A DNA stretch of 64,000 nt from Odiellus spinosus (lineage: Eukaryota; Arthropoda; Arachnida; Opiliones; Phalangiidae). The position numbers were made by a program, and so were the translations under genes. Positions within the stretch are counted from its first letter, which is position 1, and each line of letters opens with the position of its first letter. Shown here piece by piece: positions 6,085 through 64,000 of the stretch. Under the pieces are notes generated by a model. It saw only the letters and a list, made by a program, of their open reading frames with translations, was not told the DNA's origin and did no database searches. The stretch is taken from NCBI GenBank assembly GCA_963920705.1, contig OY987225.1, forward strand, positions 16,757,492-16,821,491, written 5' to 3'.

Positions 6085-6116
6085 AGTCAAACGCGCTACC
6101 ATTGCGCCATCGGGCC
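6085..6116 (-). tRNA. 5' half of a tRNA-Trp cut by the LINE
   Basis: On the minus strand this is the 5' acceptor strand, D arm and 5' anticodon strand of tRNA-Trp, ending at ...GTTTGACT. The next base is LINE. The missing part begins with the anticodon CCA. The 3' half is expected beyond the far end of the LINE, outside the window. Confidence 0.85.
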
Positions 6117-6195
6117 ATGGGGTGTCAGCTCCCTTACATGTAGTTCATATTTATTACTAAAAAATCGAAAAGTACTACTTTTTCGAAAATAAAAG

Positions 6196-6267
6196 TGACC
6201 CGAACGTGATTCGAACACGTAGCCTTTTGATCTGGAGTCAAACGCGCTACCATTGCGCCATCGGGCC
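6196..6267 (-). tRNA. tRNA-Trp(CCA), base-49 variant
   Basis: Full 72-nt cloverleaf. Base 49 is A instead of G, which turns the G-U pair 49-65 into A-U. First complete unit after the LINE junction. Confidence 0.8.
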
Positions 6268-8403
6268 ATGGGGTGTGTGCTCCCTCACATGTAGTTCACA
6301 TTTATTACTAAAAAATCGAAAAGTACTAATTTTTGAAATAAAAGTCACCCGAACGTGATTCGAAAAAGCAACCTTTTAATCCGGAGTACAACGCGCTACC
6401 ATTGCGCCATCGGGCCATGGTGTGCTTTCTCCCTTACATTAGTTCAGATTTATTACTAAAAAATCGAAAAGTACTACTTTTTGAAATAAAAGTCACCCAA
6501 ACTTGATTCGAAAACGCAACCTTTCAATCTGGAGTTCAACGAGCTACCATAGAGCCTTCATTCCACAAGGTATTAGCTTCCTTATATGTAGTTCACATTT
6601 ATTACCTAAAAATCGAAAAAGTACTTTTTCGAAAATAGAAGTGACCCGAACGTGATTCGAACACGCAGCCTTGTGATTTGGAGTCAAACGCGATACCTTT
6701 GCGCCATCGGGCCATGGGGTGTGTGCTCCCTTACATGTAGTTCACATTTATTACTAAAAAATCGAAAAGTACTAATTTTTGAAATAAAAGTCACCCGAAC
6801 TTGATTCGAAAAAGCAACCTTTTAATCCGGAGTACAACACGCTACCATTGCGCCATCGGGCCATGGGGTTTGTGCTCCCTTACATGTAGTTCACATTTAT
6901 TACTAAAAAATCGAAAAGTACTAATTTTTGAAATAAAAGTCACCCGAACGTGATTCGAAAAAAGCAACCTTTTAATCCGGAGTACAAAGCGCTACCAGTG
7001 CGCCATCGGGCCATGGTGTGCTTTCTCCCTTACATTAGTTCAGATTTATTACTAAAAAATCGAAAAGTACTACTTTTTGAAATAAAAGTCACCCAAACTT
7101 GATTCGAAAACACAACCATTTAATCTGGAGTACAACGCGCTACAATAGAGCTTTCATGCCACAAGGTATTAGCTTCCTTACATGTAGTACGCATTTATTA
7201 CCTAAAAATCGAAAAGTACTTTTTCGAAAATAAAAGTGACCCAAAAGTGATTCGCACATGAAGCCTTTTCATCTGGAGTCAAACTCGCTACGATTGCGCC
7301 ATCGGGCCATGGGGTGTCTGCTCCCTTATATGTAGTTCACATTTATTACTAAAAAATCGAAAAGTACTACTTTTTCGAAAATATAAGTTACCCGAACGTG
7401 ATTCGAACCCGCAGCCTTTTTATCTGCAGTCAAACGCGCTACCATTGGGTCATCGGCCCATGGTGTGCTTGATCCCTTACATTAGTTCACATTTAATACT
7501 GAAAAATCGAAAAGTACTACTTCTTGAAATAAAAGTTACCCGAACGTGATTCGAACACGCGGCCTTTTGATCTGGAGTCAAACGCGCTACCATTGCGCCA
7601 GCGGGCCACGGGGTGTGTGCTCCCTTACATGTAGTTCACATTTATTACTAAAAAATCGAAAAGTACTAATTTTTGAAATAAAAGTCACCCGAACGTGATT
7701 CGAAAAACCAACCTTTTAATCCGGAGTACAACGCGCTACCATTGCGCCATCGGGCCATGGTGTACTTTCTCCCTTACATTATTTCAGATTTATTAATAAA
7801 AAATCGAAAAGTACTACTTTTTCGAGAAAAAAAAGTGACCCGAACGCGATTCGAACACGCAGCCTTTTGATCTGGTGTCATAAGCGCTACCATTGCGCCA
7901 TCGGGCCACTAGGAATGTTTTTCCTTTCATGTGGTACTCATTTATTATTTAAAAATCGAAGAGTACTACTTTTTGAAATAAAAGTCACCCTAACGTGATT
8001 CGAAAACGAAGCATTTTAATCTGGAGTAAAACGCGCTTCAAGAGAATCTTCAAGCCACAAGGTAACATTACTTAAACATGGAAAAGTACTTTTACGAAAA
8101 TACAAGTGACCCGAAAGTAACTCGAACACGCAGCCTTTTGATCTGGAGTCAAACGCGCTAGTGTTGCGCCATCGGGCAATGGATTGTCAGCTCCCTTACA
8201 TGTAGTTCACATTTATTACTAAAAAATCGAAAAGTACTATTTTTTGAAATAAAAGTCACCCTAACGTGTTTCGAAAACGCAACCTTTTAATCCGGAGTCC
8301 AACGCGCTACCATGGAGCCATCATGCCACAAGGCATCAGCTTCCTTACATGTAGTACGTATTAATTACCTAAAAATCGAAAAGTACTTTTTCGGAAATGA
8401 AAG

Positions 8404-8475
8404 TGACCCGAACGTGATTCGAACACGTAGCCTTTTGATCTGGAGTCAAACGCGCTACCATTGCGCCATCGGGCC
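8404..8475 (-). tRNA. tRNA-Trp(CCA), base-49 variant
   Basis: Same A49 variant as 6196, otherwise matching the reference unit at 19209. Surrounded by decayed units. Confidence 0.8.
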
Positions 8476-8810
8476 ACGGGGTGTGTGCTCCCTTACATGT
8501 AGTTCATATTTATTACTAAAAAATCGAAAAGTACTTTTTCGAAAATAAAAGTGACCCGAACACGCACCCACTTGATCTGGAGTCAAACGCGCTACCATTG
8601 CGCCATCGGGCTATTAGGAACGCGTTCCCTTTCATGTGGTACTCATTTATTATTTAAAAATCGAAGAGCACTACTTTTTGATATGAAAGTCACCCTAACG
8701 TGATTCGAAAACGAAGCATTTTAATCTGGAGTAAAACGCACTTCAAGAGAATCTCCTGCCACAAGGTATCATTACTTAAACATGGAAAAGTACTTTTACG
8801 AAAATAGAAG

Positions 8811-8882
8811 TGACCCGAACGTGACTCGAACACGCAGCCTTTTGATCTGGAGTCAAACGCGCTACCGTTGCGCCATCGGGCC
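8811..8882 (-). tRNA. tRNA-Trp(CCA), loop variants
   Basis: All stems pair as in the reference. The T loop reads TTCGAGT and the D loop AACGGTA, both tolerated substitutions. The 3' trailer reads CACTTCTATTTTCG, so the first T4 run comes about 8 nt after the 3' end. Confidence 0.75.
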
Positions 8883-9451
8883 TTGGTTTGTCAGATCCCT
8901 TACATGTAGTTCACATTTATTACTAAAAAATCTAAAAGTACTAATTTTTGAAATAAAAGTCACCCTAACGTGATTCGAAAACGCAACCTTTTAATCCGGA
9001 GTACAACGCGCTACCATAGCGCCATCGGGCCGTGGAGTGTCTGCTCCCTTACATGTACTTCACATTTATTACTAAAAAATCGAAAAGTACTACTTTTTCG
9101 AAAATAACCCGAACGTGATTCGAACACGCAGCCTTTTGATCTGGAGTCAAACGTTCTACCATTTCGCCATCGGGCCATGGGGTGATCGCTCCCTTACATG
9201 CAGTTCAGATTTATAACTAAAAAATCGAAAATTACTAATTTTTGAAATACAAGTTGGGAAACCAAAATATAACCTCCCCGACCCCGACGTTAAGGTAATC
9301 TAACCTAACCCTACCTAAAATAAAAGATGAAAAGAAATGTAGAGTATTGGATGAGTAGAGGAAACAGCGTGCATTTCAATCATTATTCTCTATTTTACGG
9401 AGTATAAGTATTTTCCCTTAACCTCAAGGATACAGAGAATGCAAAAGAATG

Positions 9452-12955: not shown

Positions 12956-15900
12956 TTAGTTTGTACACCTGATTCCAAGAGTGGTTTGCCCATTGCCCCT
13001 CGCGCGTGACCGTGAAAAGCGTGAAAATAGGTCTGTGTGAATCCGGCTTTAGTCATGCCACAATTAACAATTGACGAACTTTCTTAAACCGGATTGACAT
13101 TGAAATTTCTCGTGTTTTAATAGTCATGTATGATATGGTTGACCCAAGAGTGAAATGTAGACAGAGTGAGGAAAAGAATCACGTGATTGGATCTCGTGAT
13201 GACTGCTAGTTTTAGTTTCACACTTTTTCATACATGAATTTAATGTTAATCCCAATTAAGTATAATAGAACCAGGCTTTTAATGCCTACTGTCGTGTATT
13301 TCCGGTAACATTTTAGCTAGTGTGGAGTCACGTAAAATGACGTTTGTTTCACAACTTGGTATATTTTTACTCAGGCCTGCCCTGTCAGAAAAAAAAAATA
13401 TAAAAAATTTATGGTAGGGCCAAAAGAGAAACATCTATTCTTTACTCACAGCATTATCACCAAAAAACGTGTTTTTAGACGTAGGCTTATAAGGTATCTG
13501 TAGGTCGTGTAGCACCAAAAAGCGAAATTGTACGTCACAGTTCGTAGTTTAGCGTGTTATGCGGAAAACTTATTCGTTAATTGTTTATTGAATATGTTTA
13601 TTTACGGTTATATGACGATACCGAGGTCATAACTTGATTTTGATGAAATATTTTGCCTAATGACGTTACTTGGTCTACAAATACTCTAGTTTTCTTAACG
13701 CCGATATGATTTTACTGAGGGACCTTGACTTTGCTTATCTAAATTTTAATTTATTGAACGTAAAATCGTTTCATTTCTTTTGAAATCTTCGACGAAGTTT
13801 GTTCTCTAGAGATTTGACTCGTTGAAATTTTAAATTAAGTTTCATTCGTTTGAATACAATTTATTGGTAAGGAAGTAATTTTGAATTTGAATCATTTATT
13901 TGATGCGTTTATTATTTGTTTGGACATTTTTGGTATATTTTCATTGACCTGAACTCTAATTTTTATTACTGAGTTGTGACTGAAATATTAGTTTGGAAAT
14001 CAAAAGGTTTTTTTTTTCTGACTCATTTTTCTCTGTAGTAATTTTTTGTTTTCGTAAAAGAGTTAATAATGCCTAATGTCGTTTATTTTCGGTGATGTTT
14101 TAGCCAGTGTGTAGTCACGTAAAATAACGTTTGTTTCACAACTTGTGTTGTATACTGAAGCCATGTATAGGTTCAATTTGATATAACATTTTGCCTTTTC
14201 ACGTTACTTGGTCTACAAATACTCTACAACCGTCAAAATTCTGATATGGTTTTAAAAGAAGAACCTTGACCTTGTGTATTTAATCTCATATCGAGATTAA
14301 ATGTTTTTCGCATCTAATTTTAATTGGTTTATCAATATGTTATTTGTATAGATATTTTTTTTAAGATTTTATATTTTTTAGATTAAAATAAATTTATTAT
14401 TCCAGAAGATTTTGTAGAATCTAGTTCTCAGGATTACCGGTGTTGAAAATTTATTTTGCTAATGTTATCTTGATGTCTGTGTTTTCTGCCCGCTATTTGG
14501 TAGTGGTAAGATTAATATTTTTAATTTTAATTAATTGACTTATTTGGCGTTTATTTGATAATTTGCTTTACTTAAATTGTTCGTGTAAGGGCTATTTTAC
14601 ATATTACCAAAGATTGCTAATTTCAGTTGTCTTAATTCTGATTTTTTTGTTTTAATACTGAATTATGGACTGGATTATTTATCTTGAAATCTATGTGGTT
14701 ATATCTTATTTATTTTCCTTTTTTTCTCTAGTTAGGTTTGGTTTTAAGTAGAGAATTATTTAGGGTTGTGTTGGTATACTGAAGAAATGCATATAGGTTC
14801 AATGTGATATAATATTTTGCCTATTTCGCTGTTTCTTCTACTCATCCAATACTCTACATTTCTTTTCATCTTTTATTTTAGGTAGGGTTAGGTTAGGTTA
14901 GATTACCTTAACGTCGGGGTCGGGGAGGTTATATTTTGGTTTCCCAACTTGTGTCAAAGTACCTTTGTCTGTATTAATTCGAATTCAGTGGACGGTGTAA
15001 ACGCACTTTTATTTAGATTCTTCAATCCACCCCAAGTTTGCAGCAAGACTAAGCCTATACTGCCCGTTATACCTTTGCTTTTTGGACTAAATGATATATG
15101 GAAAACAGCTAAGCGCGTGTTGCCAACTCAAGCTGGTATTAAACGGTCACATTTCATTAAATTTTTGGGAAATTTCTTAAATATCTTCTAAACTATCTCG
15201 AATTTTTAATTGATTTTTCAGCTTCTTTATTAATTAGATTCAGTTTAACAATATTATTATATTAAATTAAAATTTAAATGAATTATACGCTTCAATTCAC
15301 TAAAAGATATCGCGGCATAAGGCCAAAATAGTTAGGGCATGGAAAAGGGGTATATATAGCTTTCGCTAACCTTTATTCACCGAGCGAGTAACCGAGAAGA
15401 GTTGGGGAAAACCCCCCCTTCTCAACGTCTAGACGTTTATCGTAACCCTAGGCATTCGGTAACTGCACCACAAAGACCCGTAGAGGGAGGAGATGACTGG
15501 AGTGGAAGGTTGATGTGGACTATATTAGCGAGGGACGCCTCGCTAATATGGCCCGCTGAGATCGGACACTAGAGGTTGGACCTTGGTGTGAGGATGGTCG
15601 GAGGTGATTATAACAGTGGGAGACGTCCCATTGCGTATAATCGCCTTCAACTGTCCAGCATCGAGGTTTGACCGTAAAGTGATGGAGACGTCCTGTTGTA
15701 TATAATTGCACGACACCTGAAACTCATTGTGGCAGCCACGCTTAAAGGAGGTAATTCCCGTTAAAGTTCAGTCGGGGAGGTAAAAAGTCACCCGAACGTG
15801 ATTCGAAAACGCAACCTTTTAATCCGGAGAATAACGCGCTACCATTGCGCCATCATGCCACAAGGTATTAGCTTCCTTACATGTAGTATGCATTTATTAC

Positions 15901-18169
15901 CTAAAAATCGAAAAGTACTTTTTTGAAAATAAAAGTGACCCGAACGTGATTCGAACACGTAGCCTTTTGATCTGGAGTCAAACGCGCTATCATAGCGCCA
16001 TAGGGCCATAGGGTGCCTACTCTCTTACATGTAGTTCACATTTATTACCAAAAAATCGAAAAGTACTACTTTTTGAAATAAAAGTCACCCGAACGTGATT
16101 CGAAAACGCAACCTTTTAATCTGGAGTACTACGCGCTACAATAGAGCTTTCATGCCACAAGGTATTAGGTTCCTTACATGCAGTACGCATTTATTACCTA
16201 AAAATCGAAAAGTACTTTTTCGAAAATAAAAGTGACCCGAACGTGATTCGAAAACGTAGCCTTTTGATCTGGAACCAAACGCGCTATCATAGCGCTATCG
16301 GGCCATGGAGTGCCTACTCCCTTACATGTAGTTCACATTTATTACCAAAAAATCGAAAAGTACTACTTTTTCGAAAATAAAAGTTACCCGAACGTGATTC
16401 GAACACGCAGCCTTTTGATCTGGAGTCAAACGCGCTACCATTGCGCCATCGGGCCATGGGGTGTCTGCGCCCTTACATGTAGTTCAGATTTATTACTAAA
16501 AAATCTAAAGCCTTCATTTTGAAATAAATGTCACCCGAACTTGATTCGAAAACGCAACCTTTCAATCTGGAGTTTAACGAGCTACCATAGAGCCTTCATG
16601 CCACAAGGTATTAGCTTCCTTACATGTAGTACGCATTTATTACCTAAAAATCGAAAAGTACTTTTTCGAAAATAAAAGTGACCCGAACGTGATTCGAAAA
16701 CGTAGCCTTTTGATCTGGAACCAAACGCGCTATCATAGCGCTATCGGGCCATGGAGTGCCTACTCCCTTACATGTAGTTCACATTTATTACCAAAAAATC
16801 GAAAAGTACTACTTTTTGAAATAAAAGTGACCCGAACGTGATTCGAACACGCAGCCTTTTGATCTGTAGACAAACGCGCTACCATTGCGCCATCGGGCCA
16901 TTGGGTGTCAGCTACCTTACATGTAGTTCACATTTATTACTAAAAAATCGAAAAGTACTACTTTTTCGAAAATAAAAGTGACCCGAGCGTGATTCGAACA
17001 CGCAGCCTCATGATCTTTAGTCAAACGCGCTACTATTGCGCCATCGGGCCATGGGGTGTCTGCTCCCTAACATGTAGTTCAGATTTATTACTAAAAAATC
17101 GAAAAGTACTAATTTTTGAAATAAAAGTCACCCGAACGTGATTCGAAAACGCAACCTTTTAATCCGGAGTACAACGCGCTACCATTGAGCCTTCATGCCA
17201 CAAGTTATTACCTTCCTTACATGTAGTACGCATTTATTACCTAAAAATCGAAAAGTACTTTTTCTAAAATAAAAGTGACCCGAACGCGATTCGAACACGC
17301 AGCTTTTTGATCTGGAGTTGAACGCGCTACGATTGCGGCATCGGGCCATGGGGTATCTGCTCCCTTACATGTAGTTCACATTTATTACTAAAAAATCGAA
17401 AAGTACTACTTTTTCGAAAATAAAAGTGACCCGAACGTGATTCGAACACGCAGCCTTTTCATCTGGAGTCAAACGCGCTACCATTGCGCCATCATGCCAC
17501 GCAGTATTAGCTTCCTTACATGTAGTACGCATTTATTACCTAAAAATCGAAAAGTACTAATTTTTGAAATAAAAGTCACCCGAACGTGATTCGAAAACGC
17601 AACCTTTTAATACGGAGTACAACGCGCTACCATTGCGCCATCATGCCACAAAGTATTAGCTTCCTTACATGTAGTACGCATTTATTACCTAAAAATCGAA
17701 AAGTACTTTTTCGAAAATAAAAGTGACCCGAACGTGATTCGAAAACGAAGCCTTTTGATCTGGAGCCAAACGCGCTATCATAGCGCCATCGGGCCATAGG
17801 GTGCCTACTCTCTTACATGTAGTTCACATTTATTACCAAAAAATCGAAAAGTACTACTTTTTCGAAAATAAAAGTGACCCGAACGTGATTCGAACACGCA
17901 GCTTTTTGATCTGGAGTCAAACGCGCTACCATTGCGCCATCAGGCCATGGGGTGTCTTCTCCCTTACATGTAGTTCAGATTTATTACTAAAAAATCTAAA
18001 GCCTTCATTTTGAAATAAAAGTCACCCGAACGTGATTCGAAAACGCAACCTTTTAATCTGGAGTACTACGCGCTACAATAGAGCTTTCATGCCACAAGGT
18101 ATTAGGTTCCTTACATGTAGGACGCATTTATTACCTAAAAATCGAAAAGTACTTTTTCGAAAATAAAAG

Positions 18170-18241
18170 TGACCTGAACGTGATTCGAACACGCAGCTTT
18201 TTGATCTGGAGTCAAACGCGCTACCATTGCGCCATCAGGCC
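18170..18241 (-). tRNA. tRNA-Trp(CCA) with compensatory acceptor pair
   Basis: Both sides of acceptor pair 5-68 are changed relative to the reference, from C-G to U-A, so the stem stays fully paired. The neighbouring unit at 17875 carries only the first change (U-G). Confidence 0.75.
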
Positions 18242-51221: not shown

Positions 51222-51293
51222 TGACCCGAACGTGATTCGAACACGCAGCCTTTTGATCTGGAGTCAAACGCGCTACCATTGCGCCATCGGGCC
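51222..51293 (-). tRNA. tRNA-Trp(CCA)
   Basis: All 72 nt match the 19209 unit; 598 bp (four units) after 50624. Confidence 0.88.
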
Positions 51294-51815
51294 ATGGGGT
51301 GTCAGCTACCTTACATGTAGTTCATATTTATTACTAAAAAATCGAAAAGTACTACTTTTTCGAAAATAAAAGTGACCCGAACGTGATTCGTACACGCAGC
51401 CTTTTGATCTGGAGTCAAACGCGCTACCATTGCGCCATCGGGCCATGAGGTGTCTGGTCCCTTACATGTAGTTCAGATTTATTACTAAAAATCTAAAGCC
51501 TTCATTTTGAAATAAAAGTCACCCGAACTTGATTCGAAAACTAAACCTTTCAATCTGGAGTTTAACGAGCTACCATAGAGTCTTCATGCCACAAGGTATT
51601 AGCTTCCTTACATGTAGTACGCATTTATTACCTAAAAATCGAAAAGTACTTTTTCGAAAATAAAAGTGACCCGAACGTGATTCGAAAACGCAGCCTTTTG
51701 ATCTGGAATCAAACGCCCTATCATAGCGCTATCGGGCCATGGGGTGCCTACTGCCTTACATGTAGTTCACATTTATTACCATAAAATCGAAAAGTACTAC
51801 TTTTTGAAATAAAAG

Positions 51816-51887
51816 TGACCCGAACGTGATTCGAACACGCAGCCTTTTGATCTGGAGTCAAACGCGCTACCATTGCGCCATCGGGCC
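51816..51887 (-). tRNA. tRNA-Trp(CCA)
   Basis: All 72 nt match the 19209 unit; 594 bp (four units) after 51222. Confidence 0.88.
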
Positions 51888-52559
51888 ATGGGGTGTTAGC
51901 TACCTTACATGTAGTTCATATTTATTACTAAAAAATCGAAAAGTAATATTTTTCGAAAATAAAAGTGACCCGAACGTGATTCGTACTCGCAGCCTTTTGA
52001 TCTGGAGTCAAACGCGCTACCATTGCGCCATCAGGCCATGGGGTGTCTGCTCCCTTACATGTAGTTCAGATTTATAACTAAAAAAACGAAAAGTACTAAT
52101 TTTTGAAATAAAAGTCACCCGAACGTGATTCGAAAACGCAACCCTTTAATACGGAGTACAACGCACTACCATTGCGCCATCATGCCACAAAGTATTATCT
52201 TCCATACATGTAGTACGCATTTATTACCTAAAAATCGAAAAGTACTTTTTCGTAAATAAAAGTGACCCGTACGTGATTCGAAAACGTAGCCTTTTAATCT
52301 GGAAACAACCGCGCTATCATAGAGCCATCGGGCCATGGGGTGCCTACTCTCTTACATGTAGTTCACATTTATTACCAAAAAATCGAAAAGTACTACTTTT
52401 TGAAATAAAAGTCACCCGAACGTGATTCGAAAACGCAACCTTTTAATCTGGAGTACTACGCGCTACAATAGAGCTTTCATGCCACAAGGTATTAGGTTCC
52501 TTACATGCAGTACCCATTTATTACCTAAAAATCGAAAAGTACTTTTTCGAAAATAAAAG

Positions 52560-52631
52560 TGACCCGAACGTGATTCGAACACGCAGCCTTTTGATCTGGA
52601 GTCAAACGCGCTACCATTGCGCCATCGGGCC
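52560..52631 (-). tRNA. tRNA-Trp(CCA)
   Basis: All 72 nt match the 19209 unit. Confidence 0.88.
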
Positions 52632-53746
52632 ATGGGGTGTCTGCTCCCTTACATGTAGTTCACATTTATTACTAAAAAATCGAAAAGTACTACTTTTTCG
52701 ACAATAAAAGTGACCCGAACGTGATTCGAAAACGTAGCCTTTTGATCTGGAGCCAAACGCGCTATCATAGCGCTATCGGGCCATGGGATGCCTACTGCCT
52801 TACATGTAGTTCACATTTATTACCAAAAAATCGAAAAGTACTACTTTTTGAAATAAAAGTGACCCGAACGTGATTCGAACACGCAGCCTTTTGATCTGGA
52901 GTCAAACGCACTACCATTGCGCCATCGGGCCATGGGGTGTCAGCCACCTTACATGTAGTTCATATTTATTACTAAAAAATCGAAAAGTACTATTTTTCGA
53001 AAATAAAAGTGACCCGAACGTGATTCGTACACGCAGCCTTTTGATCTGGAGTCAAACGCGCTACCATTGCGCCATCAGGCCATGGGGGGTCTGCTCCCTT
53101 ACATGTAGTTCAGATTTATAACTAAAAAAACGAAAAGTACTAATTTTTGAAATAAAAGTCACCCGAACGTGATTTGAAAACGCAACCCTTTAATACGGAG
53201 TACAACGCACTACCATTGCGCCATCATGCCACAAAGTATTAGCTTCCATACATGTAGTACGCATTTATTACCTAAAAATCGAAAAGTACTTTTTCGAAAA
53301 TAAAAGTGACCCGTACGTGATTCGAAAACGTAGCCTTTTAATCTGGAGCCAACCGCGCTACCATAGCGCCATCGGGCCATGGGGTGCCTACTCTCTTACA
53401 TGTAGTTCACATTTATTACCAAAAAGTACTACTTTTTGAAATAAAAGTCACCCGAACGTGATTCGAAAACGCAACCTTTTAATCTGGAGTACTACGCGCT
53501 ACAATAGAGCTTTCATGCCACAAGGTATTAGGTTCCTTACATGCAGTACCCATTTATTACCTAAAAATCGAAAAGTACTTTTTCGAAAATAAAAGTGACC
53601 CGAACGTGATTCGAACACGCAGCCTTTTGATATGGAGTCAAACGCGCTACCATTGCGCCATCGGGCCATGGGGTGTCTGCTCCCTTACATGTAGTTCACA
53701 TTTATTACTAAAAAATCGAAAAGTACCACTTTTTCGAAAATAAAAG

Positions 53747-53818
53747 TGACCCGAACGTGATTCGAACACGCAGCCTTTTGATCTGGAGTCAAACGCGCTA
53801 CCATTGCGCCATCGGGCC
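53747..53818 (-). tRNA. tRNA-Trp(CCA)
   Basis: Duplicate of 43146 (offset 10,601), including the rare AGTACCACTTTTTCG spacer variant. Confidence 0.88.
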
Positions 53819-54189
53819 ATGAGGTGTCTGGTCCCTTACATGTAGTTCAGATTTATTACTAAAAATCTAAAGCCTTCATTTTGAAATAAAAGTCACCCGA
53901 ACTTGATTCGAAAACTAAACCTTTCAATCTGGAGTTTAACGAGCTACCATAGAGCCTTCATGCCACAAGGTATTAGCTTCCTTACATGTAGTACGCATTT
54001 ATTACCTAAAAATCGAAAAGTACTTTTTCGAAAATAAAAGTGACCCGAACGTGATTCGAAAACGTAGCCTTTTGATCTGGAACCAAACGCCCTATCATAG
54101 CGCTATCGGCCCATGGGGTGCCTACTGCCTTACATGTAGTTCACATTTATTACCAAAAAATCGAAAAGTACTACTTTTTGAAATAAAAG

Positions 54190-54261
54190 TGACCCGAACG
54201 TGATTCGAACACGCAGCCTTTTGATCTGGAGTCAAACGCGCTACCATTGCGCCATCGGGCC
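54190..54261 (-). tRNA. tRNA-Trp(CCA)
   Basis: Duplicate of 43589 (offset 10,601). Confidence 0.88.
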
Positions 54262-54786
54262 ATGGGGAGTCAGCTACCTTACATGTAGTTCATATTTATT
54301 ACTAAAAAATCGAAAATTACTACTTTTTCGAAAATAAAAGTGACCCGAACGTGATTCGTACACGCAGCCTTTTGATCTGGAGTCAAACGCGCTACCATTG
54401 CGCCATCAGGCCATGGGGTGTCTGCTCCCTTACATGTAGTTCAGATTTATAACTAAAAAAACGAAAAGTACTAATTTTTGAAATAAAAGTCACCCGAACG
54501 TGATTCGAAAACGCAACCTTTTAATACGGAGTACAACGCGCTACCATTGCGCCATCATGCCACAAAGTATTAGCCTCCTTACATGTAGTACGCATTTATT
54601 ACCTAAAAATCAAAAAGTACTTTTTCGAAAATAAAAGTGACCCGAACGTGATTCGAAAACGTAGCCTTTTGATCTGGAGCCAAACGCGCTATCATAGCGC
54701 TATCGGGCCATGGGGTGCCTACTGCCTTACATGTAGTTCACATTTATTACCAAAAAATCGAAAAGTACTACTTTTTGAAATAAAAG

Positions 54787-54858
54787 TGACCCGAACGTGA
54801 TTCGAACACGCAGCCTTTTGATCTAGAGTCAAACGCGCTACCATTGCGCCATCGGGCC
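54787..54858 (-). tRNA. tRNA-Trp body with CTA anticodon (predicted amber suppressor)
   Basis: Body as at 44186, and its segmental-duplication partner (offset 10,601 bp). Confidence 0.8.
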
Positions 54859-55380
54859 ATGGGGTGTCAGCTACCTTACATGTAGTTCATATTTATTACT
54901 AAAAAATCGAAAAGTACTACTTTTTCGAAAATAAAAGTGACCCGAACGTGATTCGTACACGCAGCCTTTTGATCTGGAGTCAAACGCGCTACCATTGCGC
55001 CATCGGGCCATGAGGTGTCTGGTCCCTTACATGTAGTTCAGATTTATTACTAAAAATCTAAAGCCTTCATTTTGAAATAAAAGTCACCCGAACTTGATTC
55101 GAAAACTAAACCTTTCAATCTGGAGTTTAACGAGCTACCATAGAGCCTTCATGCCACAAGGTATTAGCTTCCTTACATGTAGTACGCATTTATTACCTAA
55201 AAATCGAAAAGTACTTTTTCGAAAATAAAAGTGACCCGAACGTGATTCGAAAACGTAGCCTTTTGATCTGGAACCAAACGCCCTATCGTAGCGCTATCGG
55301 GCCATGGGGTACCTACTGCCTTACATGTAGTTCACATTTATTACCAAAAAATCGAAAAGTACTACTTTTTGAAATAAAAG

Positions 55381-55452
55381 TGACCCGAACGTGATTCGAA
55401 CACGCAGCCTTTTGATCTAGAGTCAAACGCGCTACCATTGCGCCATCGGGCC
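55381..55452 (-). tRNA. tRNA-Trp body with CTA anticodon (predicted amber suppressor)
   Basis: Body as at 44186. Lies four units from the 54787 copy, so local unit exchange has propagated the change. Confidence 0.8.
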
Positions 55453-55682
55453 ATGGGGTGTCAGCTACCTTACATGTAGTTCATATTTATTACTAAAAAA
55501 TCGAAAAGTACTACTTTTTCGAAAATAAAAGTGACCCGAACGTGATTCGTACACGCAGCCTTTTGATCTGGAGTCAAACGCGCTACCATTGCGCCATCAG
55601 GCCATGGGGTGTCTGCTCCCTTAAATGTAGTTCAGATTTATAACTAAAAAAACGAAAAGTACTAATTTTTCGAAAATAAAAG

Positions 55683-55754
55683 TGACCCGAACGTGATTCG
55701 AACACGCAGCCTTTTGATCTGGAGTCAAACGCGCTACCATTGCGCCATCGGGCC
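55683..55754 (-). tRNA. tRNA-Trp(CCA)
   Basis: All 72 nt match the 19209 unit; its partner in a later repeat is 59707. Confidence 0.88.
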
Positions 55755-56126
55755 ATGAGGTGTCTGCTCCCTTACATGTAGTTCAGATTTATTACTAAAA
55801 AATCTAAAGCCTTCATTTTGAAATAAAAGTCACCCGAACTTGATTCGAAAACTAAACCTTTCAATCTTAAGTTTAACGAGCTACCATAGAGCCTTCATGC
55901 CACAAGGTATTAGCTTCCTTACATGTAGTACGCATTTATTACCTAAATATCGAAAAGTACTTTTTCGAAAATAAAAGTGACCCGAACGTGATTCGAAAAC
56001 GTGGCCTTTTGATCTGGAACCAAACGCGCTATCATAGCGCTATCGGGCCATGGGGTGCCTACTCCCTTACATGTAGTTCACATTTATTACCAAAAAATCG
56101 AAAAGTACTACTTTTTGAAATAAAAG

Positions 56127-56198
56127 TGACCCGAACGTGATTCGAACACGCAGCCTTTTGATCTGGAGTCAAACGCGCTACCATTGCGCCATCGGGCC
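56127..56198 (-). tRNA. tRNA-Trp(CCA)
   Basis: All 72 nt match the 19209 unit. Confidence 0.88.
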
Positions 56199-56277
56199 AT
56201 GGGGTGTCTGCTCCCTTACATATAGTTCACATTTATTACTAAAAAATCGAAAAGTACTACTTTTTCGAAAATAAAAG

Positions 56278-56349
56278 TGACCCGAACGTGATTCGAACAC
56301 GCAGCCTTTTGATCTGGAGTCAAACGCGCTACCATTGCGCCATCGGGCC
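56278..56349 (-). tRNA. tRNA-Trp(CCA)
   Basis: All 72 nt match 19209; adjacent to the intact 56127 unit. Confidence 0.88.
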
Positions 56350-56721
56350 ATGAGGTTTCTGCTCCCTTACATGTAGTTCAGATTTATTACTAAAAAATCT
56401 AAAGCCTTCATTTTGAAATAAAAGTCACCCGAACTTGATTCGAAAACTAAACCTTTCAATCTTAAGTTTAACGAGCTACCATAGAGCCTTCATGCCACAA
56501 GGTATTAGCTTCCTTACATGTAGTACGCATTTATTACCTAAATATCGAAAAGTACTTTTTCGAAAATAAAAGTGACCCGAACGTGATTCGAAAACGTGGC
56601 CTTTTGATCTGGAACCAAACGCGCTATCATAGCGCTATCGGGCCATGGGGTGCCTACTCCCTTACATGTAGTTCACATTTATTACCAAAAAATCGAAAAG
56701 TACTTCTTTTTGAAATAAAAG

Positions 56722-56793
56722 TGACCCGAACGTGATTCGAACACGCAGCCTTTTGATCTGGAGTCAAACGCGCTACCATTGCGCCATCGGGCC
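56722..56793 (-). tRNA. tRNA-Trp(CCA)
   Basis: All 72 nt match the 19209 unit; the spacer has the AGTACTTCTTTTTG variant shared with 62237. Confidence 0.88.
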
Positions 56794-56872
56794 ATGAGGT
56801 TTCTGCTCCCTTACATGTAGTTCAGATTTATTACTAAAAAATCGAAAAGTACTACTTTTTCGAAAATAAAAG

Positions 56873-56944
56873 TGACCCGAACGTGATTCGAACACGCAGC
56901 CTTTTGATCTGGAGTCAAACGCGCTACCATTGCGCCATCGGGCC
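56873..56944 (-). tRNA. tRNA-Trp(CCA)
   Basis: All 72 nt match 19209; adjacent to the intact 56722 unit. Confidence 0.88.
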
Positions 56945-57616
56945 ATGTGGTGTCAGCTACCTTACATGTAGTTCATATTTATTACTAAAAAATCGAAAAG
57001 TACTATTTTTCGAAAATAAAAGTGACCCGAACGTGATTCGTACACGCAGCCTTTTGATCTGGAGTCAAACGCGCTACCATTGCGCGATCAGGCCATGGGG
57101 TGTCTGCTCCCTTACATGTAGTTCAGATTTATAACTAAAAAAACGAAAAGTACTACTTTTTCGAAAATAAAAGTGACCCGAACGTGATTCGAACACGCTG
57201 CCTTTTGATTTGGAGTCAAACGCGCTACCATTGCGCCATCGGGCCATGAGGTGTCTGGTCCCTTACATGTAGTTCAGATTTATTACTAAAAATCTAAAGC
57301 CTTCATTTTGAAATAAAAGTCACCCGAACTTGATTCGAAAACTAAACCTTTCAATCTGGAGTTTAACGAGCTACCATAGAGCCTTCATGCCACAAGGTAT
57401 TAGCTTCCTTACATGTAGTACGCATTTATTACCTAAAAATCGAAAAGTACTTTTTCGAAAATAAAAGTGACCCGAACGTGATTCGAAAACGTAGCCTTTT
57501 GATCTGGAACCAAACGCCCTAACATAGCGCTATCGGGCCATGGGGTGCCTACTGCCTTACATGTAGTTCACATTTATTACCAAAAAATCGAAAAGTACTA
57601 CTTTTTGAAATAAAAG

Positions 57617-57688
57617 TGACCCGAACGTGATTCGAACACGCAGCCTTTTGATCTGGAGTCAAACGCGCTACCATTGCGCCATCGGGCC
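57617..57688 (-). tRNA. tRNA-Trp(CCA)
   Basis: All 72 nt match the 19209 unit. Confidence 0.88.
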
Positions 57689-58213
57689 ATGGGGTGTCAG
57701 CTACCTTACATGTAGTTCATATTTATTACTAAAAAATCGAAAAGTACTACTTTTTCGAAAATAAAAGTGACCCGAACGTGATTCGTACACGCAGCCTTTT
57801 GATCTGGAGTCAAACGCGCTACCATTGCGCCATCAGGCCATGGGGTGTCTGCTCCCTTACATGTAGTTCAGATTTATAACTAAAAAAACGAAAAGTACTA
57901 ATTTTTGAAATAAAAGTCACCCGAACGTGATTCGAAAACGCAACCTTTTAATACGGAGTACAACGCGCTACCATTGCGCCATCATGCCACAAAGTATTAA
58001 CTTCCTTACATGTAGTACGCATTTATTACCTAAAAATCAAAAAGTACTTTTTCGAAAATAAAAGTGACCCGAACGTGATTCGAAAACGTAGCCTTTTGAT
58101 CTGGAGCCAAACGCGCTATCATAGCGCTATCGGGCCATGGGGTGCCTACTGCCTTACATGTAGTTCACATTTATTTCCAAAAAATCGAAAAGTACTACTT
58201 TTTGAAATAAAAG

Positions 58214-58285
58214 TGACCCGAACGTGATTCGAACACGCAGCCTTTTGATCTAGAGTCAAACGCGCTACCATTGCGCCATCGGGCC
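58214..58285 (-). tRNA. tRNA-Trp body with CTA anticodon (predicted amber suppressor)
   Basis: Body as at 44186, in a class context (CCG class, CTGGAGCC class, then this unit) like that of 54787. Confidence 0.8.
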
Positions 58286-58807
58286 ATGGGGTGTCAGCTA
58301 CCTTACATGTAGTTCATATTTATTACTAAAAAATCGAAAAGTACTACTTTTTCGAAAATAAAAGTGACCCGAACGTGATTCGTACACGCAGCCTTTTGAT
58401 CTGGAGTCAAACGCGCTACCATTGCGCCATCGGCCCATGAGGTGTCTGGTCCCTTACATGTAGTTCAGATTTATTACTAAAAATCTAAAGCCTTCATTTT
58501 GAAATAAAAGTCACCCGAACTTGATTCGAAAACTAAACCTTTCAATCTGGAGTTTAACGAGCTACCATAGAGCCTTCATGCCACAAGGTAATAGCTTCCT
58601 TACATGTAGTACGCATTTATTACCTAAAAATCGAAAAGTACTTTTTCGAAAATAAAAGTGACCCGAACGTGATTCGAAAACGTAGCCTTTCGATCTGGAA
58701 CCAAACGCCCTATCGTAGCGCTATCGGGCCATGGGGTGCCTACTGCCTTACATGTAGTTCACATTTATTACCAAAAAATCGAAAAGTACTACTTTTTGAA
58801 ATAAAAG

Positions 58808-58879
58808 TGACCCGAACGTGATTCGAACACGCAGCCTTTTGATCTGGAGTCAAACGCGCTACCATTGCGCCATCGGGCC
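58808..58879 (-). tRNA. tRNA-Trp(CCA)
   Basis: All 72 nt match the 19209 unit; four units after the CTA copy at 58214. Confidence 0.88.
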
Positions 58880-59404
58880 ATGGGGTGTCAGCTACCTTAC
58901 ATGTAGTTCATATTTATTACTAAAAAATCGAAAAGTACTACTTTTTCGAAAATAAAAGTGACCCGAACGTGATTCGTACACGCAGCCTTTTGATCTGGAG
59001 TCAAACGCGCTACCATTGCACCATCAGGCCATGGGATGTCTACTCCCTTACATGTAGTTCACATTTATAACTAAAAAAACGAAAAGTACTAATTTTTGAA
59101 ATAAAAGTCACCCGAACGTGATTCGAAAACGCAACCTTTTAATACGGAGTACCACGCGCTACCATTGCGCCATCATGCCACAAAGTATTAGCTTCCTTAC
59201 ATGTAGTACGCATTTATTACCTAAAAATCGAAAAGTACTTTTTCGAAAATAAAAGTGACCCGAACGTGATTCGAAAACGTAGCCTTTTGATCTGGAGCCA
59301 AACGCGCTATCATAGCGCTATCGGGCCATGTGGTGCCTACTGCCTTACATGTAGTTCAAATTTATTACCAAAAAATCGAAAAGTACTACTTTTTGAAATA
59401 AAAG

Positions 59405-59476
59405 TGACCCGAACGTGATTCGAACACGCAGCCTTTTGATCTGGAGTCAAACGCGCTACCATTGCGCCATCGGGCC
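59405..59476 (-). tRNA. tRNA-Trp(CCA)
   Basis: All 72 nt match the 19209 unit. Confidence 0.88.
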
Positions 59477-59706
59477 ATGGGGTGTCAGCTACCTTACATG
59501 TAGTTCATATTTATTACTAAAAAATCGAAAAGTACTACTTTTTCGAAAATAAAAGTGACCCGAACGTGATTCGTACACGCAGCCTTTTGATCTGGAGTCA
59601 AACGCGCTACCATTGCGCCATCAGGCCATGGGGTGTCTGCTCCCTTAAATGTAGTTCAGATTTATAACTAAAAAAACGAAAAGTACTAATTTTTCGAAAA
59701 TAAAAG

Positions 59707-59778
59707 TGACCCGAACGTGATTCGAACACGCAGCCTTTTGATCTGGAGTCAAACGCGCTACCATTGCGCCATCGGGCC
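59707..59778 (-). tRNA. tRNA-Trp(CCA)
   Basis: All 72 nt match the 19209 unit; context repeats that of 55683. Confidence 0.88.
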
Positions 59779-60152
59779 ATGAGGTGTCTGCTCCCTTACA
59801 TGTAGTTCAGATTTATTACTAAAAAATCTAAAGCCTTCATTTTGAAATAAAAGTCACCCGAACTTGATTCGAAAACTAAACCTTTCAATCTTAAGTTTAA
59901 CGAGCTACCATAGAGCCTTCATGCCACAAGGTATTAGCTTCCTTACATGTAGTACGCATTTATTACCTAAATATCGAAAAGTACTTTTTCGAAAATAAAA
60001 GTGACCCGAACGTGATTCGAACACGCAGCCTTCTGATCTGGAGTCAAACGCGCTACCATTGCGCCATCGGGCCATGGGGTGTCTGCTCCCTTACATGTAG
60101 TTCACATTTATTACTAAAAAATCGAAAAGTACTACTTTTTCGAAAATAAAAG

Positions 60153-60224
60153 TGACCCGAACGTGATTCGAACACGCAGCCTTTTGATCTGGAGTCAAAC
60201 GCGCTACCATTGCGCCATCGGGCC
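60153..60224 (-). tRNA. tRNA-Trp(CCA)
   Basis: All 72 nt match the 19209 unit; the neighbour at 60002 differs only by a G-U in the anticodon stem. Confidence 0.88.
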
Positions 60225-60596
60225 ATGAGGTTTCTGCTCCCTTACATGTAGTTCAGATTTATTACTAAAAAATCTAAAGCCTTCATTTTGAAATAAAAGT
60301 CACCCGAACTTGATTCGAAAACTAAACCTTTCAATCTTAAGTTTAACGAGCTACCACAGAGCCTTCATGCCACAAGGTATTAGCTTCGTTACATGTAGTA
60401 CGCATTTATTACCTAAAAATCGAAAAGTACTTTTTCGAAAATAAAAGTGACCCGAACGTGATTCGAAAACGTAGCCTTTTGATCTGGAACCAAACGCCCT
60501 ATCATAGCGCTATCGGGCCACGGGGTGCCTACTGCCTTACATGTAGTTCACATTTATTACCAAAAAATCGAAAAGTACTACTTTTTGAAATAAAAG

Positions 60597-60668
60597 TGAC
60601 CCGAACGTGATTCGAACACGCAGCCTTTTGATCTGGAGTCAAACGCGCTACCATTGCGCCATCGGGCC
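60597..60668 (-). tRNA. tRNA-Trp(CCA)
   Basis: All 72 nt match the 19209 unit; repeated 2,380 bp later at 62977. Confidence 0.88.
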
Positions 60669-61792
60669 ATGGGGTGTCATCTACCTTACATGTAGTTCAT
60701 ATTTATTACTAAAAAATCGAAAAGTACTACTTTTTCGAAAATAAAAGTGACCCGAACGTGATTCGTACACGCAGCCTTTTGATCTGGAGTCAAACGCGCT
60801 ACCATTGCGCCATCGGGCCATGAGGTGTCTGGTCCCTTACATGTAGTTCAGATTTATAACTAAAAAAACGAAAAGTACTAATTTTTGAAATAAAAGTCAC
60901 CCGAACGTGATTCGAAAACGCAACCTTTTAATACGGAGTACAACGCGCTACCATTGCGCCATCATGCCACAAAGTATTAGCTTCCTTACATGTAGTACGC
61001 ATTTATTACCTAAAAATCGAAAAGTACTTTTTCGAAAATAAAAGTGACCCGAACGTGATTCGAAAACGTAGCCTTTTGATCTAGAACTAAACGCGCTATC
61101 ATAGCGCTATCGGGCCATGGGGTGCCTACTGCCTTACATGTAGTTCACATTTATTACCAAAAAATCGAAAAGTACTACTTTTTGAAATAAAAGTGACCCG
61201 AACGTGATTCGAACACGCAGCCTTTTGATCTGGAGTCAAACGCGCTACCATTGTGCCATCGGGCCATGGGGTGTCAGCTACCTTACATGTAGTTCATATT
61301 TATTACTAAAAAATCGAAAAGTACTACTTTTTCGAAAATAAAAGTGACCCGAACGTGATTCGTACACGCAGCCTTTTGATCTGGAGTCAAACGCGCTACC
61401 ATTGCGCCATCAGGCCATGGGGTGTCTGCTCCCTTACATGTAGTTCAGATTTATAACTAAAAAAACGAAAAGTACTAATTTTTGAAATAAAAGTCACCCG
61501 AACGTGATTCGAAAACGCAACCTTTTAATACGGAGTACTACGCGCTACAATAGAGCTTTCATGCCACAAGGTATAAGGTTCCTTACATGCAGTACGCATT
61601 TATTACCCAAAAATTGAAAAGTACTTTTTCGAAAATAAAAGTGACCCGAACGTGATTCGAACACGCAGCCTTTTGACCTGGAGTCAAACGCGCTACCATT
61701 GCGCCATCGGGCCATGGGGTGTCTGCTCCCTTACATGTAGTTCACATTTATTACTAAAAAATCGAAAAGTAATACTTTTTCGAAAATAAAAG

Positions 61793-61864
61793 TGACCCGA
61801 ACGTGATTCGAACACGCAGCCTTTTGATCTGGAGTCAAACGCGCTACCATTGCGCCATCGGGCC
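61793..61864 (-). tRNA. tRNA-Trp(CCA)
   Basis: All 72 nt match the 19209 unit; spacer variant AGTAATACTTTTTCG. Confidence 0.88.
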
Positions 61865-62236
61865 ATGAGGTGTCTGCTCCCTTACATGTAGTTCAGATTT
61901 ATTACTAAAAAATCTAAAGCCTTCATTTTGAAATAAAAGTCACCCGAACTCGATTCGAAAACTAAACCTTTCAATCTGGAGTTTAACGAGCTACCATAGA
62001 GCCTTCATGCCACAAGGTATTAGCTTCCTTACATGTAGTACGCATTTATTACCTAAAAATCGAAAAGTACTTTTTCGAAAATAAAAGTGACCCGAACGTG
62101 ATTCGAAAACGTAGCCTTTTGATCTGGAACCAAACGCGCTATCATAGCGCTATCGGGCCTTGGGGTGCCTACTCCCTTACATGTAGTTCACATTTATTAC
62201 CAAAAAATCGAAAAGTACTTCTTTTTGAAATAAAAG

Positions 62237-62308
62237 TGACCCGAACGTGATTCGAACACGCAGCCTTTTGATCTGGAGTCAAACGCGCTACCATTGCGCC
62301 ATCGGGCC
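62237..62308 (-). tRNA. tRNA-Trp(CCA)
   Basis: All 72 nt match the 19209 unit. Confidence 0.88.
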
Positions 62309-62533
62309 ATGGGGTGTCTGCTCCCTTACATGTAGTTCATATTTATTACTAAAAAATCGAAAAGTACTACTTTTTGAAATAAAAGTCACCCGAACGTGAT
62401 TCGAAAACGCAACCTTTTAATCTGGAGTACTACGCGCTACAATAGAGCTTTCATGCCACAAGGTATTAGGTTCCTTACATGCAGTACCCATTTATTACCT
62501 AAAAATCGAAAAGTACTTTTTCGAAAATAAAAG

Positions 62534-62605
62534 TGACCCGAACGTGATTCGAACACGCAGCCTTTTGATCTGGAGTCAAACGCGCTACCATTGCGCCATC
62601 GGGCC
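62534..62605 (-). tRNA. tRNA-Trp(CCA)
   Basis: All 72 nt match the 19209 unit. Confidence 0.88.
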
Positions 62606-62976
62606 ATGAAGTGTCTGGTCCCTTACATGTAGTTCAGATTTATTACTAAAAATCTAAAGCCTTCATTTTGAAATAAAAGTCACCCGAACTTGATTCGAAA
62701 ACTAAACCTTTCAATCTGGAGTTTAACGAGCTACCACAGAGCCTTCATGCCACAAGGTATTAGCTTCGTTACATGTAGTACGCATTTATTACCTAAAAAT
62801 CGAAAAGTACTTTTTCGAAAATAAAAGTGACCCGAACGTGATTCGAAAACGTAGCCTTTTGATCTGGAACCAAACGCCCTATCATAGCGCTATCGGGCCA
62901 TGGGGTGCCTACTGCCTTACATGTAGTTCACATTTATTACCAAAAAATCGAAAAGTACTACTTTTTGAAATAAAAG

Positions 62977-63048
62977 TGACCCGAACGTGATTCGAACACG
63001 CAGCCTTTTGATCTGGAGTCAAACGCGCTACCATTGCGCCATCGGGCC
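62977..63048 (-). tRNA. tRNA-Trp(CCA)
   Basis: All 72 nt match the 19209 unit; higher-order repeat partner of 60597. Confidence 0.88.
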
Positions 63049-64000
63049 ATGGGGTGTCATCTACCTTACATGTAGTTCATATTTATTACTAAAAAATCGA
63101 AAAGTACTACTTTTTCGAAAATAAAAGTGACCCGAACGTGATTCGTACACGCAGCCTTTTGATCTGGAGTCAAACGCGCTACCATTGCGCCATCGGGCCA
63201 TGAGGTGTCTGGTCCCTTACATGTAGTTCAGATTTATAACTAAAAAAACGAAAAGTACTAATTTTTGAAATAAAAGTCACCCGAACGTGATTCGAAAACG
63301 CAACCTTTTAATACGGAGTACAACGCGCTACCATTGCGCCATCATGCCACAAAGTATTAGCTTCCTTACATGTAGTACGCATTTATTACCTAAAAATCGA
63401 AAAGTACTTTTTCGAAAATAAAAGTGACCCGAACGTGATTCGAAAACGTAGCCTTTTGATCTAGAACTAAACGCGCTATCATAGCGCTATCGGGCCATGG
63501 GGTGCCTACTGCCTTACATGTAGTTCACATTTATTACCAAAAAATCGAAAAGTACTACTTTTTGAAATAAAAGTGACCCGAACGTGATTCGAACACGCAG
63601 CCTTTTGATCTGGAGTCAAACGCGCTACCATTGTGCCATCGGGCCATGGGGTGTCAGCTACCTTACATGTAGTTCATATTTATTACTAAAAAATCGAAAA
63701 GTACTACTTTTTCGAAAATAAAAGTGACCCGAACGTGATTCGTACACGCAGCCTTTTGATCTGGAGTCAAACGCGCTACCATTGCGCCATCAGGCCATGG
63801 GGTGTCTGCTCCCTTACATGTAGTTCAGATTTATAACTAAAAAAACGAAAAGTACTAATTTTTGAAATAAAAGTCACCCGAACGTGATTCGAAAACGCAA
63901 CCTTTTAATACGGAGTACTACGCGCTACAATAGAGCTTTCATGCCACAAGGTATAAGGTTCCTTACATGCAGTACGCATTTATTACCCAAAAATTGAAAA

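Follow-up and report, generated by a model that had tools for sequence, protein, structure and literature searches.

A tRNA-Trp gene array of Odiellus spinosus, probably now mostly satellite, among tRNA satellites that mostly look selected

The tandem tRNA-Trp sequences of Odiellus spinosus were probably once a functional tRNA gene array and are now mostly a neutral satellite, in a genome whose other tRNA satellites mostly still look selected. The question addressed is whether tRNA genes in large arrays are useful or amount to selfish satellites, and one genome gave opposite signatures for the same architecture: common variants were nearly excluded from the tRNA in the Lys, Ala and Cys arrays, but not in the Trp array. 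The Trp array was analysed in a window of 64,000 nucleotides on contig C1; at least eight further tRNA arrays exist in the genome, which was not visible from the window alone. An earlier note on this DNA had left four options for it, namely a pure satellite, a tRNA source, a TFIIIC-binding boundary or a source of tRNA fragments. The sequence favors a tRNA array in origin that is mostly satellite now, the second part because conservation of the tRNA body did not exceed that of the linker and the anticodon was changed in 90 of 445 aligned units, and the first because the array consensus kept every base pair despite differing from the isolated genes.

The nhmmer search found 256 tRNA-Trp units of ~149 bp in the window, every one of them minus-strand; they form five blocks that total 36,177 bp (Table 1). 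This confirms the approximately 250 head-to-tail units counted before. The array given as ~38 kb was present and its units summed to 36.2 kb; however, the span assigned to it (6085-64000) included four inserts of 3.9-6.5 kb. TRF periods across the array were 148/149 and 297, and of the 143 window tRNA genes called by ARAGORN nearly all were minus-strand Trp-CCA. Each monomer was a complete tRNA-Trp transcription unit with an upstream flank, a tRNA with internal A and B boxes and a T-run. The whole array measured ~163 kb with roughly 850 units and extended past the window on both sides, forming the long head-to-tail series of similar monomers expected of a satellite. The 7.6-kb duplication, with copies still 96.7% identical, pointed to multi-unit exchange in the array. 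Units from the window and 30 kb rightward were aligned (445 units, ~3 of them counted twice in a 492-base overlap), and 265 of these sequences were distinct. The explanation that an assembler multiplied the copies is very improbable and was set aside, since so many distinct units, several inserts and diverged 7.6-kb copies are unlike a collapsed or looped repeat.

Table 1. Features of the window, in window positions unless marked C1.
Feature	Position	Strand	Basis or remark
5' part of insert C1:16,753,927-16,763,575, LINE frames	1..6084	-	5' end at 6084
Target duplication AGTCAAAC	6085-6092		adjoins LINE 5' end at 6084
tRNA-Trp satellite block 1	6085..9237	-	nhmmer and junction; begins inside LINE-cut unit
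tRNA-Trp satellite block 2, ~83 units	15783..28096	-	nhmmer, TRF
tRNA-Trp satellite block 3	33739..36704	-	nhmmer, TRF
tRNA-Trp satellite block 4	40613..44311	-	nhmmer, TRF
tRNA-Trp satellite block 5, open at window edge	48235..64000	-	runs on to ~C1:16,911,325
Inserts between blocks, four, 3.9 to 6.5 kb	9238-15782, 28097-33738, 36705-40612, 44312-48234
7.6-kb segment (insert and array), two copies	36705-44311 and 44312-51941	.	96.7% identical, blastn
Intact unit tRNA, example	8404..8475	-	70.4 bits, anticodon CCA (ARAGORN, Rfam)
Unit tRNA with stop-reading CTA anticodon, example	44186..44257	-	69.6 bits (ARAGORN, Rfam)

The LINE insertion lay beside the anticodon stem in all three readable insertions. 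Further copies of this LINE include ones at C13:19.58 Mb, C17:5.80 Mb and C17:1.81 Mb. Positions 1-4000 of the window also contained other repeats, and a short TTAGG-like run was seen at 3935-3956; the TTAGG repeat is linked to arthropods.

Above the gathering score, 176 Rfam tRNA matches were obtained in the window, at least one of which (32781-32852) sat in an insert outside the array. Among the 150 matches listed, 51 reached 68.1 bits or more, in agreement with the fifty near-perfect cloverleaves reported earlier, but four of these carried a CTA anticodon. The lesioned neighbors described with them formed a class of their own: the 249 units of the window that the alignment retained fell into class A (intact consensus, 176 units) and class B (degenerate, 73 units), which were interspersed, with two class B units adjacent once only. 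The class B consensus tRNA differed from that of class A at 11 sites, and every class B unit had mispairs (2-10 per unit), compared with 136 mispair-free units among 311 of class A. The terminator, previously noted as usual, was found in all units, with TTTT at most 35 nt after the tRNA in 445/445. The CCA anticodon was retained in 355/445 units, and nine units departed from the consensus solely by a stop-reading anticodon (CTA in four, TCA in five). The exact consensus tRNA was present in 60/445 units, close to the maximum for other windows of the same length (0-61, median 13), so that intact Trp tRNAs may be kept as blocks, although the contrast is not clean, as all those other windows include a hypervariable stretch just upstream of the tRNA.

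When the tRNA body was compared with the linker, the tRNA was more conserved in five of the six aligned arrays, and Trp was the exception. The tRNA/linker mismatch ratio was 0.95 in Trp, 0.20 in Lys1, 0.33 in Lys2, 0.21 in Ala, 0.23 in Cys and 0.48 in Ser; with distinct units only it was 0.93 in Trp, and the Lys, Ala and Cys values lay within 0.20-0.37 under either count. By this ratio, no purifying selection on the Trp tRNA body was detected. When windows as long as the tRNA were taken around the unit and ordered from least to most divergent, the true tRNA came 72nd of 148 in Trp, and its places in the remaining five arrays were 3rd, 2nd, 1st, 5th and 1st of 147-159. Common variants, defined as those present in 10% or more of distinct units, numbered 16 in the tRNA versus 18 in the linker in Trp, 0 versus 13 in Lys1, 2 versus 11 in Lys2, 1 versus 16 in Ala, 0 versus 14 in Cys and 7 versus 17 in Ser. 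Variants in the Trp array had therefore spread regardless of coded function, as in a satellite. Selection on the Trp units had also been considered on the strength of the 51 high-scoring cloverleaves alone, and was rejected: class A units by themselves had 9 common variants in the tRNA versus 10 in the linker, with divergence slightly lower in the tRNA (0.049 versus 0.057).

Anticodon meaning was kept in 94-100% of units in the five non-Trp aligned arrays. It was TTT in 132/132 and 66/66 Lys units and GCA in 125/125 Cys units, and it stayed within its own codon box in 111/112 Ala and 58/62 Ser units. Variation in Ala and Ser was almost restricted to the wobble base, the mark expected from decoding selection on a satellite. 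Both statistical tests counted related units as independent; column-wise Mann-Whitney p values were 0.92 for Trp, 7e-5 for Ala and 0.019 for Cys, and marginal for Lys1 (0.05), Lys2 (0.069) and Ser (0.084), and Fisher tests of rare versus common variants in tRNA versus linker gave 1e-5 for Lys1, 0.00012 for Cys, 0.0045 for Ala, 0.022 for Ser, 0.1 for Lys2 and 0.24 for Trp. On these sequence patterns, the arrays of Lys, Ala and Cys would be gene arrays still under selection, and so, with less clarity, would that of Ser. In Ser, TTTT within 35 nt after the tRNA was found in only 3/62 units, and most units were without it. Biased homogenization could mimic such a selection signature.

In all six aligned arrays, common variants were denser within 18 nt of the tRNA on either side than in the far linker (pooled, 66 in 216 columns versus 24 in 241; approximate p 5e-6). 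Excess variation is expected beside transcribed tRNA genes through transcription-associated mutation (PMC8113476, in its available portion), and the flank excess fits this process, though weaker flank constraint would look alike. On the upstream side in Trp, 11 common variants lay within 18 nt of the tRNA versus 4 farther away. This excess, the 51 high-scoring units among the 150 matches listed, the 60 exact consensus tRNAs and the universal T-run would agree with a living tRNA source, in which an intact minority works, possibly in the oocyte or embryo, with the rest as tolerated passengers; zebrafish maternal tRNAs derive from repetitive clusters (PMC11417395, available portion). However, the Trp tRNA body showed no net constraint, nine units were off consensus only by a stop-reading anticodon, and the downstream flank had no excess (2 versus 2), so that a living source appears unlikely. 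If the Trp array still does more than a satellite, the intact minority of units would be responsible.

Less likely still is a chromatin boundary or organizer acting through TFIIIC or Pol III binding, with the boxes rather than tRNA function under selection. The human 1q23.3 tRNA repeat has been proposed as a boundary element (PMC4041453, available portion), but the Trp A-box region was not spared (12 columns, mean mismatch 0.109 versus 0.086 for the whole tRNA, 5 common variants). The B-box region was milder (11 columns, 0.064, 1 common variant).

Eight further single-isotype tRNA arrays were found in the genome (two Lys, two Ala, and one each of Cys, Ser, Pro and Gly; units 148-164 bp), and a pattern search added another Lys array at C4:15.148 Mb, the ninth besides Trp among the matches listed. 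B boxes paired at array spacing numbered 5,557 versus 69 in the control. Isolated genes were also present for Trp, Lys, Arg and Thr, as was a Cys pair. The expectation that ordinary tRNA-Trp genes would be few was borne out, with at least three isolated genes, all on contig C7, among the matches listed. Among 100 listed of 853 places with the T-arm pattern, only these three C7 genes and one C4 match lay outside the Trp locus. Unit-query matches listed were all at C1 16.78-16.91 Mb, and neither these nor the listed T-arm matches showed dispersed copies that had a tail and target duplications. A tRNA-derived SINE family turned tandem was accordingly set aside as scarcely credible, although SINE-derived satellites are reported in reptiles (PMC10702118, available portion).

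The Trp array consensus differed from the C7:10.40 Mb genes at 6 sites without any mispair, and two pairs were changed on both sides. The chance of such double pair changes was 0.003 for Trp and 0.001 for Cys; that of six pair-preserving changes, a weak test, was 0.18 if all are transitions and 0.02 otherwise. This pair-preserving divergence would reflect past function, for which we lean on the double changes. One of the two predates the array, since the isolated C7:21.80 Mb gene carries it.

A former gene array turned satellite could have arisen as follows. The founder would have been a functional, diverged tRNA-Trp gene whose units were amplified and spread by unequal exchange. Selection on the Trp tRNA may later have weakened or lapsed, after which class B and other-anticodon units would have spread roughly as easily as intact units; the isolated C7 genes can presumably supply the cell. 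For the arrays that look selected, bulk germline or maternal tRNA supply is a candidate reason by analogy with zebrafish. A broader and more tentative reading is a second tRNA gene set made of nucleosome-length satellites of at least seven isotypes, with isodecoders distinct from those of the isolated genes and maintained by selection for use at a particular stage, oogenesis or early embryogenesis for example. The Trp array would be its disused, decaying member under satellite dynamics, with a LINE lineage living beside the anticodon stems, and would then serve as a natural control. Array and isolated isodecoders differ in sequence, at consensus sites 2, 4, 7, 27, 41 and 65 in Trp and at sites 5, 6 and 66-68 in Cys, and therefore tRNA-seq can separate them directly. 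Trp and its sister arrays offer a natural comparison of dying and living tRNA gene arrays.

No report of one-gene tRNA satellites in an arthropod was found in the open-access literature among the matches listed; the following comparisons draw on the available portions of the cited papers. Bombylius bee-flies likewise have hundreds of Ala, Phe and Ser tRNA gene copies unrelated to codon use, although that portion is silent on whether they are in tandem or under constraint (PMC10978632). The human 1q23.3 locus is also a tRNA-bearing tandem repeat and varies in copy number, but its unit is 7.3 kb long, includes several tRNAs plus a CTCF site, and occurs in 9-43 copies (PMC4041453). The Arabidopsis Ser-Tyr-Tyr cluster, whose tRNA genes are mostly silent, resembles the Trp array in tandem arrangement and in having some degenerate units; it differs in having two isotypes per unit, tens of copies and root-tip reactivation (PMC12308677). 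Zebrafish clusters similarly hold very many tRNA genes beside isolated ones, with differing isodecoders, but one-gene 150-bp monomers are not described in the portion available, and stage-specific expression was measured there whereas the Odiellus spinosus arrays are known from sequence alone (PMC11417395). Entamoeba arrays are alike in their long tandem series of short units with tRNA genes, many different arrays per genome (as found here) and homogenized copies (PMC2652664). However, almost all Entamoeba tRNA genes are arrayed, in units that combine 1-5 tRNA types, the genes being separated by short tandem repeats, whereas in Odiellus spinosus isolated genes persist and each array carries one isotype in a unit of 148-164 bp.

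The genome is 443 Mb in size, and the window corresponds to C1:16,757,492-16,821,491. In the window, 256 tRNA-Trp units of ~149 bp were found in five blocks, all on the minus strand and covering 36,177 bp, with tandem periods of 148/149 and 297. ARAGORN called 143 tRNA genes in the window, and 176 Rfam tRNA matches exceeded the Rfam cut-off; at least 51 scored 68.1 bits or more among the 150 of 176 listed. A DNA query with the Trp unit gave 172 matches, and those listed all fell at C1:16.78-16.91 Mb. The T-arm pattern (up to 3 mismatches) matched 850 minus-strand and 3 plus-strand places, versus 1 and 3 for controls. Trp units were absent from the 2.7 kb beyond the right end of the array. The whole array therefore comprises about 850 units over 163 kb, inserts included; sequence was read for the window, loci L018-L021, L055 and L056 and a few 3-kb loci, with 16.851-16.910 Mb read in part.

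Coordinates of tRNA arrays, inserts and retrotransposons (C, contig; L, locus read from the same assembly)
Feature	Location	Unit or spacing	Basis or detail
Trp units, left and right ends	C1:16,748,515; C1:16,911,325	~149 bp	single detached fragment at 16,741,345-16,741,461
Trp units with CTA or TCA anticodon	window 44185, 54786, 55380, 58213; also L018-L020		
Lys-TTT array	C4:15.33 Mb	148 bp	read directly
Lys-TTT array, different linker	C5:9.53 Mb	149 bp	read directly
Third tRNA-Lys series, plus strand	C4:15,147,891-15,151,137	~146 bp	pattern listing alone
Ala-CGC/TGC array	C17:8.32 Mb	159 bp	read directly
Ala-CGC/TGC array	C223	158 bp	read directly
Cys-GCA array	C16:6.18 Mb	154 bp	read directly
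Ser array	C1:8.12-8.25 Mb	161 bp	read directly
Pro-CGG array	C2:0.697 Mb	148 bp	read directly
Gly-GCC array	C2:32.8 Mb	mostly 164, some 135 bp	read directly
Inserts with common ends	window 9238-15782, 36705-40612, 44312-48234		
Minisatellite in these inserts	window 12699-12953, 38718-39012, 46325-46619	20 bp	
Insert with other tRNA-like units	window 28097-33738		Val-TAC at 30115, Gly-TCC at 32780; paired B boxes at 32650-32802
Non-tRNA tandem repeats	window 2458-3069; 1362-1944	149 bp; 100 bp	
LINE in Trp array	C1:16,753,927-16,763,575		L021:6428-9992 and window 1-6084; T-run at L021:6428-6450
LINE in Ser unit	C1:8.20-8.21 Mb		L047:2357-3172, L048:1-1363

Searches of the whole genome revealed further arrays, and the catalogue, drawn from the first 100 places listed per pattern, is a lower bound. 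Isotype patterns, which also count isolated genes, gave 343 places for Lys, 927 for Ser, 227 for Ala and 157 for Cys (controls 0). B-box pairs 135-165 bp apart occurred at 2,738 + 2,819 places versus 8 + 61 in controls, and one T-arm subset at 951 places versus 0.

When units were aligned, the Trp tRNA had nearly as many mismatches as its linker, and the tRNA of five sister arrays had far fewer or, in Ser, about half as many. The 461 Trp units came from the window and L018-L020; about 3 of the 445 retained were entered twice, as 492 bases of L018 are shared with the window. Rare variants were about equally dense in tRNA and linker in all arrays, showing that mutation does reach the tRNA. The sole common tRNA variant of the Ala array was the wobble base. 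Constraint was weakest, among the five non-Trp arrays, in Ser, where TTTT lay within 35 nt of the tRNA in just 3/62 units; it did so in 445/445 Trp units. The exact consensus tRNA was present in 60/445 Trp units, close to the top of the range for equal-length windows (0-61). This last count, together with the weak constraint and mostly missing TTTT of Ser, speaks against a simple story. Judged from the sequence, selection in the Trp array is probably weak or gone.

Constraint on tRNA and linker (dropped units spanned too little of the model; rank, true tRNA position among tRNA-long windows moved round the whole unit; rare, in at most 2 distinct units; common, in at least 10% of distinct units)
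Array	Retained/found	Mean mismatch ratio, tRNA/linker	Same, distinct units	Rank	Rare-variant density, tRNA/linker	Common variants, tRNA vs linker
Trp	445/461	0.95	0.93	72/148	1.46	16 vs 18
Lys1	132/140	0.20	0.20	3/147	1.75	0 vs 13
Lys2	66/68	0.33	0.37	2/147	0.74	2 vs 11
Ala	112/118	0.21	0.21	1/158	0.85	1 vs 16
Cys	125/129	0.23	0.24	5/154	1.35	0 vs 14
Ser	62/63	0.48	0.50	1/159	1.14	7 vs 17

The anticodon was TTT in every Lys unit (132/132 and 66/66), GCA in 125/125 Cys units, TGC or CGC in 111/112 Ala units (L009-L010) and AGA, TGA or CGA in 58/62 Ser units (L052). The synthetases that charge tRNA-Ala and tRNA-Ser are not known to recognise the anticodon; if they indeed do not, drift confined to the wobble base is the trace expected of selection on decoding. 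The 445 Trp units carried CCA (355), CCG (67), TCA (7), CTA (6) and others (10). A stop-type anticodon was the sole departure from consensus in 4/6 CTA and 5/7 TCA units. If expressed and charged, such units would read stop codons, and their presence in the array counts against strong expression.

Of the Trp units, 311 belonged to class A, with an intact cloverleaf as consensus, and 134 to class B, whose consensus tRNA is degenerate and departs from that of class A at 11 sites. In class A, 136 units had no mispair, 156 had 1-6 and 19 were gapped; in class B, 132 had 2-10 and 2 were gapped. In the window, 176 class A and 73 class B units were intermingled, with neighbouring B units just once. 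A 7.6-kb duplication (96.7% identity) in the array indicates that many units were exchanged at once. Three inserts with common ends (CAAGTTGGGAAACCAAAAT..., CCTCCCC hairpin) look like a DNA transposon family; the first includes a sequence that matches the other two at 97% identity in inverted orientation, and all contain a minisatellite (GGAATCACGCGAATCGATTC). Another insert, with ARAGORN tRNA-like units of other kinds, perhaps carries a piece of another tRNA array. The 149-bp non-tRNA repeat has a CTCCTCGACTTTAGTCGAGG hairpin.

Isolated tRNA-Trp genes were found at C7:10.40 Mb (two, identical) and C7:21.80 Mb. The array consensus differed from the former at 6 sites with no mispair, pairs 7:65 and 27:41 being altered on both sides (chance 0.003); the C7:21.80 Mb gene already carries the 27:41 change and is thus nearer to the array. 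The Cys array differed from an isolated pair on C3 at 5 sites with no mispair and two double changes (0.001), and the two Lys arrays departed from isolated Lys genes by 4 sites and 1 site, also with no mispair. Array isodecoders are therefore distinct from isolated ones in the three isotypes compared, and the consensus tRNAs of the arrays seem to stem from functional genes.

The LINE in the Trp array opens with a 23-base T-run after ...GGAGTCAAAC and stops directly before AGTCAAACGCGC, an 8-bp target duplication on the 5' side of a Trp anticodon stem. Pfam matched reverse transcriptase (3.6e-25) and endonuclease (1.9e-5) and, falling short of the curated cut-offs, zf-RVT (0.00028) and a zinc knuckle (0.023). 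On C12, the tail of two relatives (L057, L058), treated as one event as their flanks are near-identical, adjoins the 3' portion of a tRNA-Pro interrupted at the anticodon-stem base (48 nt, 6 mismatches by eye). A remoter relative (ORF1 51.6% identical) lies within a Ser unit, its tail immediately ahead of the anticodon arm. There were 16 LINE matches, including further 5'-end matches; the site was beside the anticodon stem in 3/3 events read (Trp, Pro, Ser), two of them encountered because they lie inside arrays. These A-tailed LINEs are possibly a tRNA-targeting non-LTR retrotransposon lineage; the nearest named case found, in the part of the source available, is Dewa, which targets a tRNA-Leu spacer (PMC3706591).

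A tRNA gene and its flanks may have been amplified locally, with units homogenised through unequal exchange and selection presumably acting on the tRNA in most arrays. In zebrafish, according to the available part of one report, repetitive clusters supply maternal tRNAs and isolated copies later ones (PMC11417395), the most specific lead for why arrays exist. A 2010 survey, in its accessible portion, stated that Entamoeba was the sole reported case of tRNA tandem repeats (PMC2888827). By the extracts available, tandem tRNA genes are already known from Entamoeba, zebrafish, Arabidopsis and man, and tRNA gene expansions from bee-flies; unlike those systems as there described, this genome has one-gene monomers of 148-164 bp in seven isotypes with contrasting constraint.
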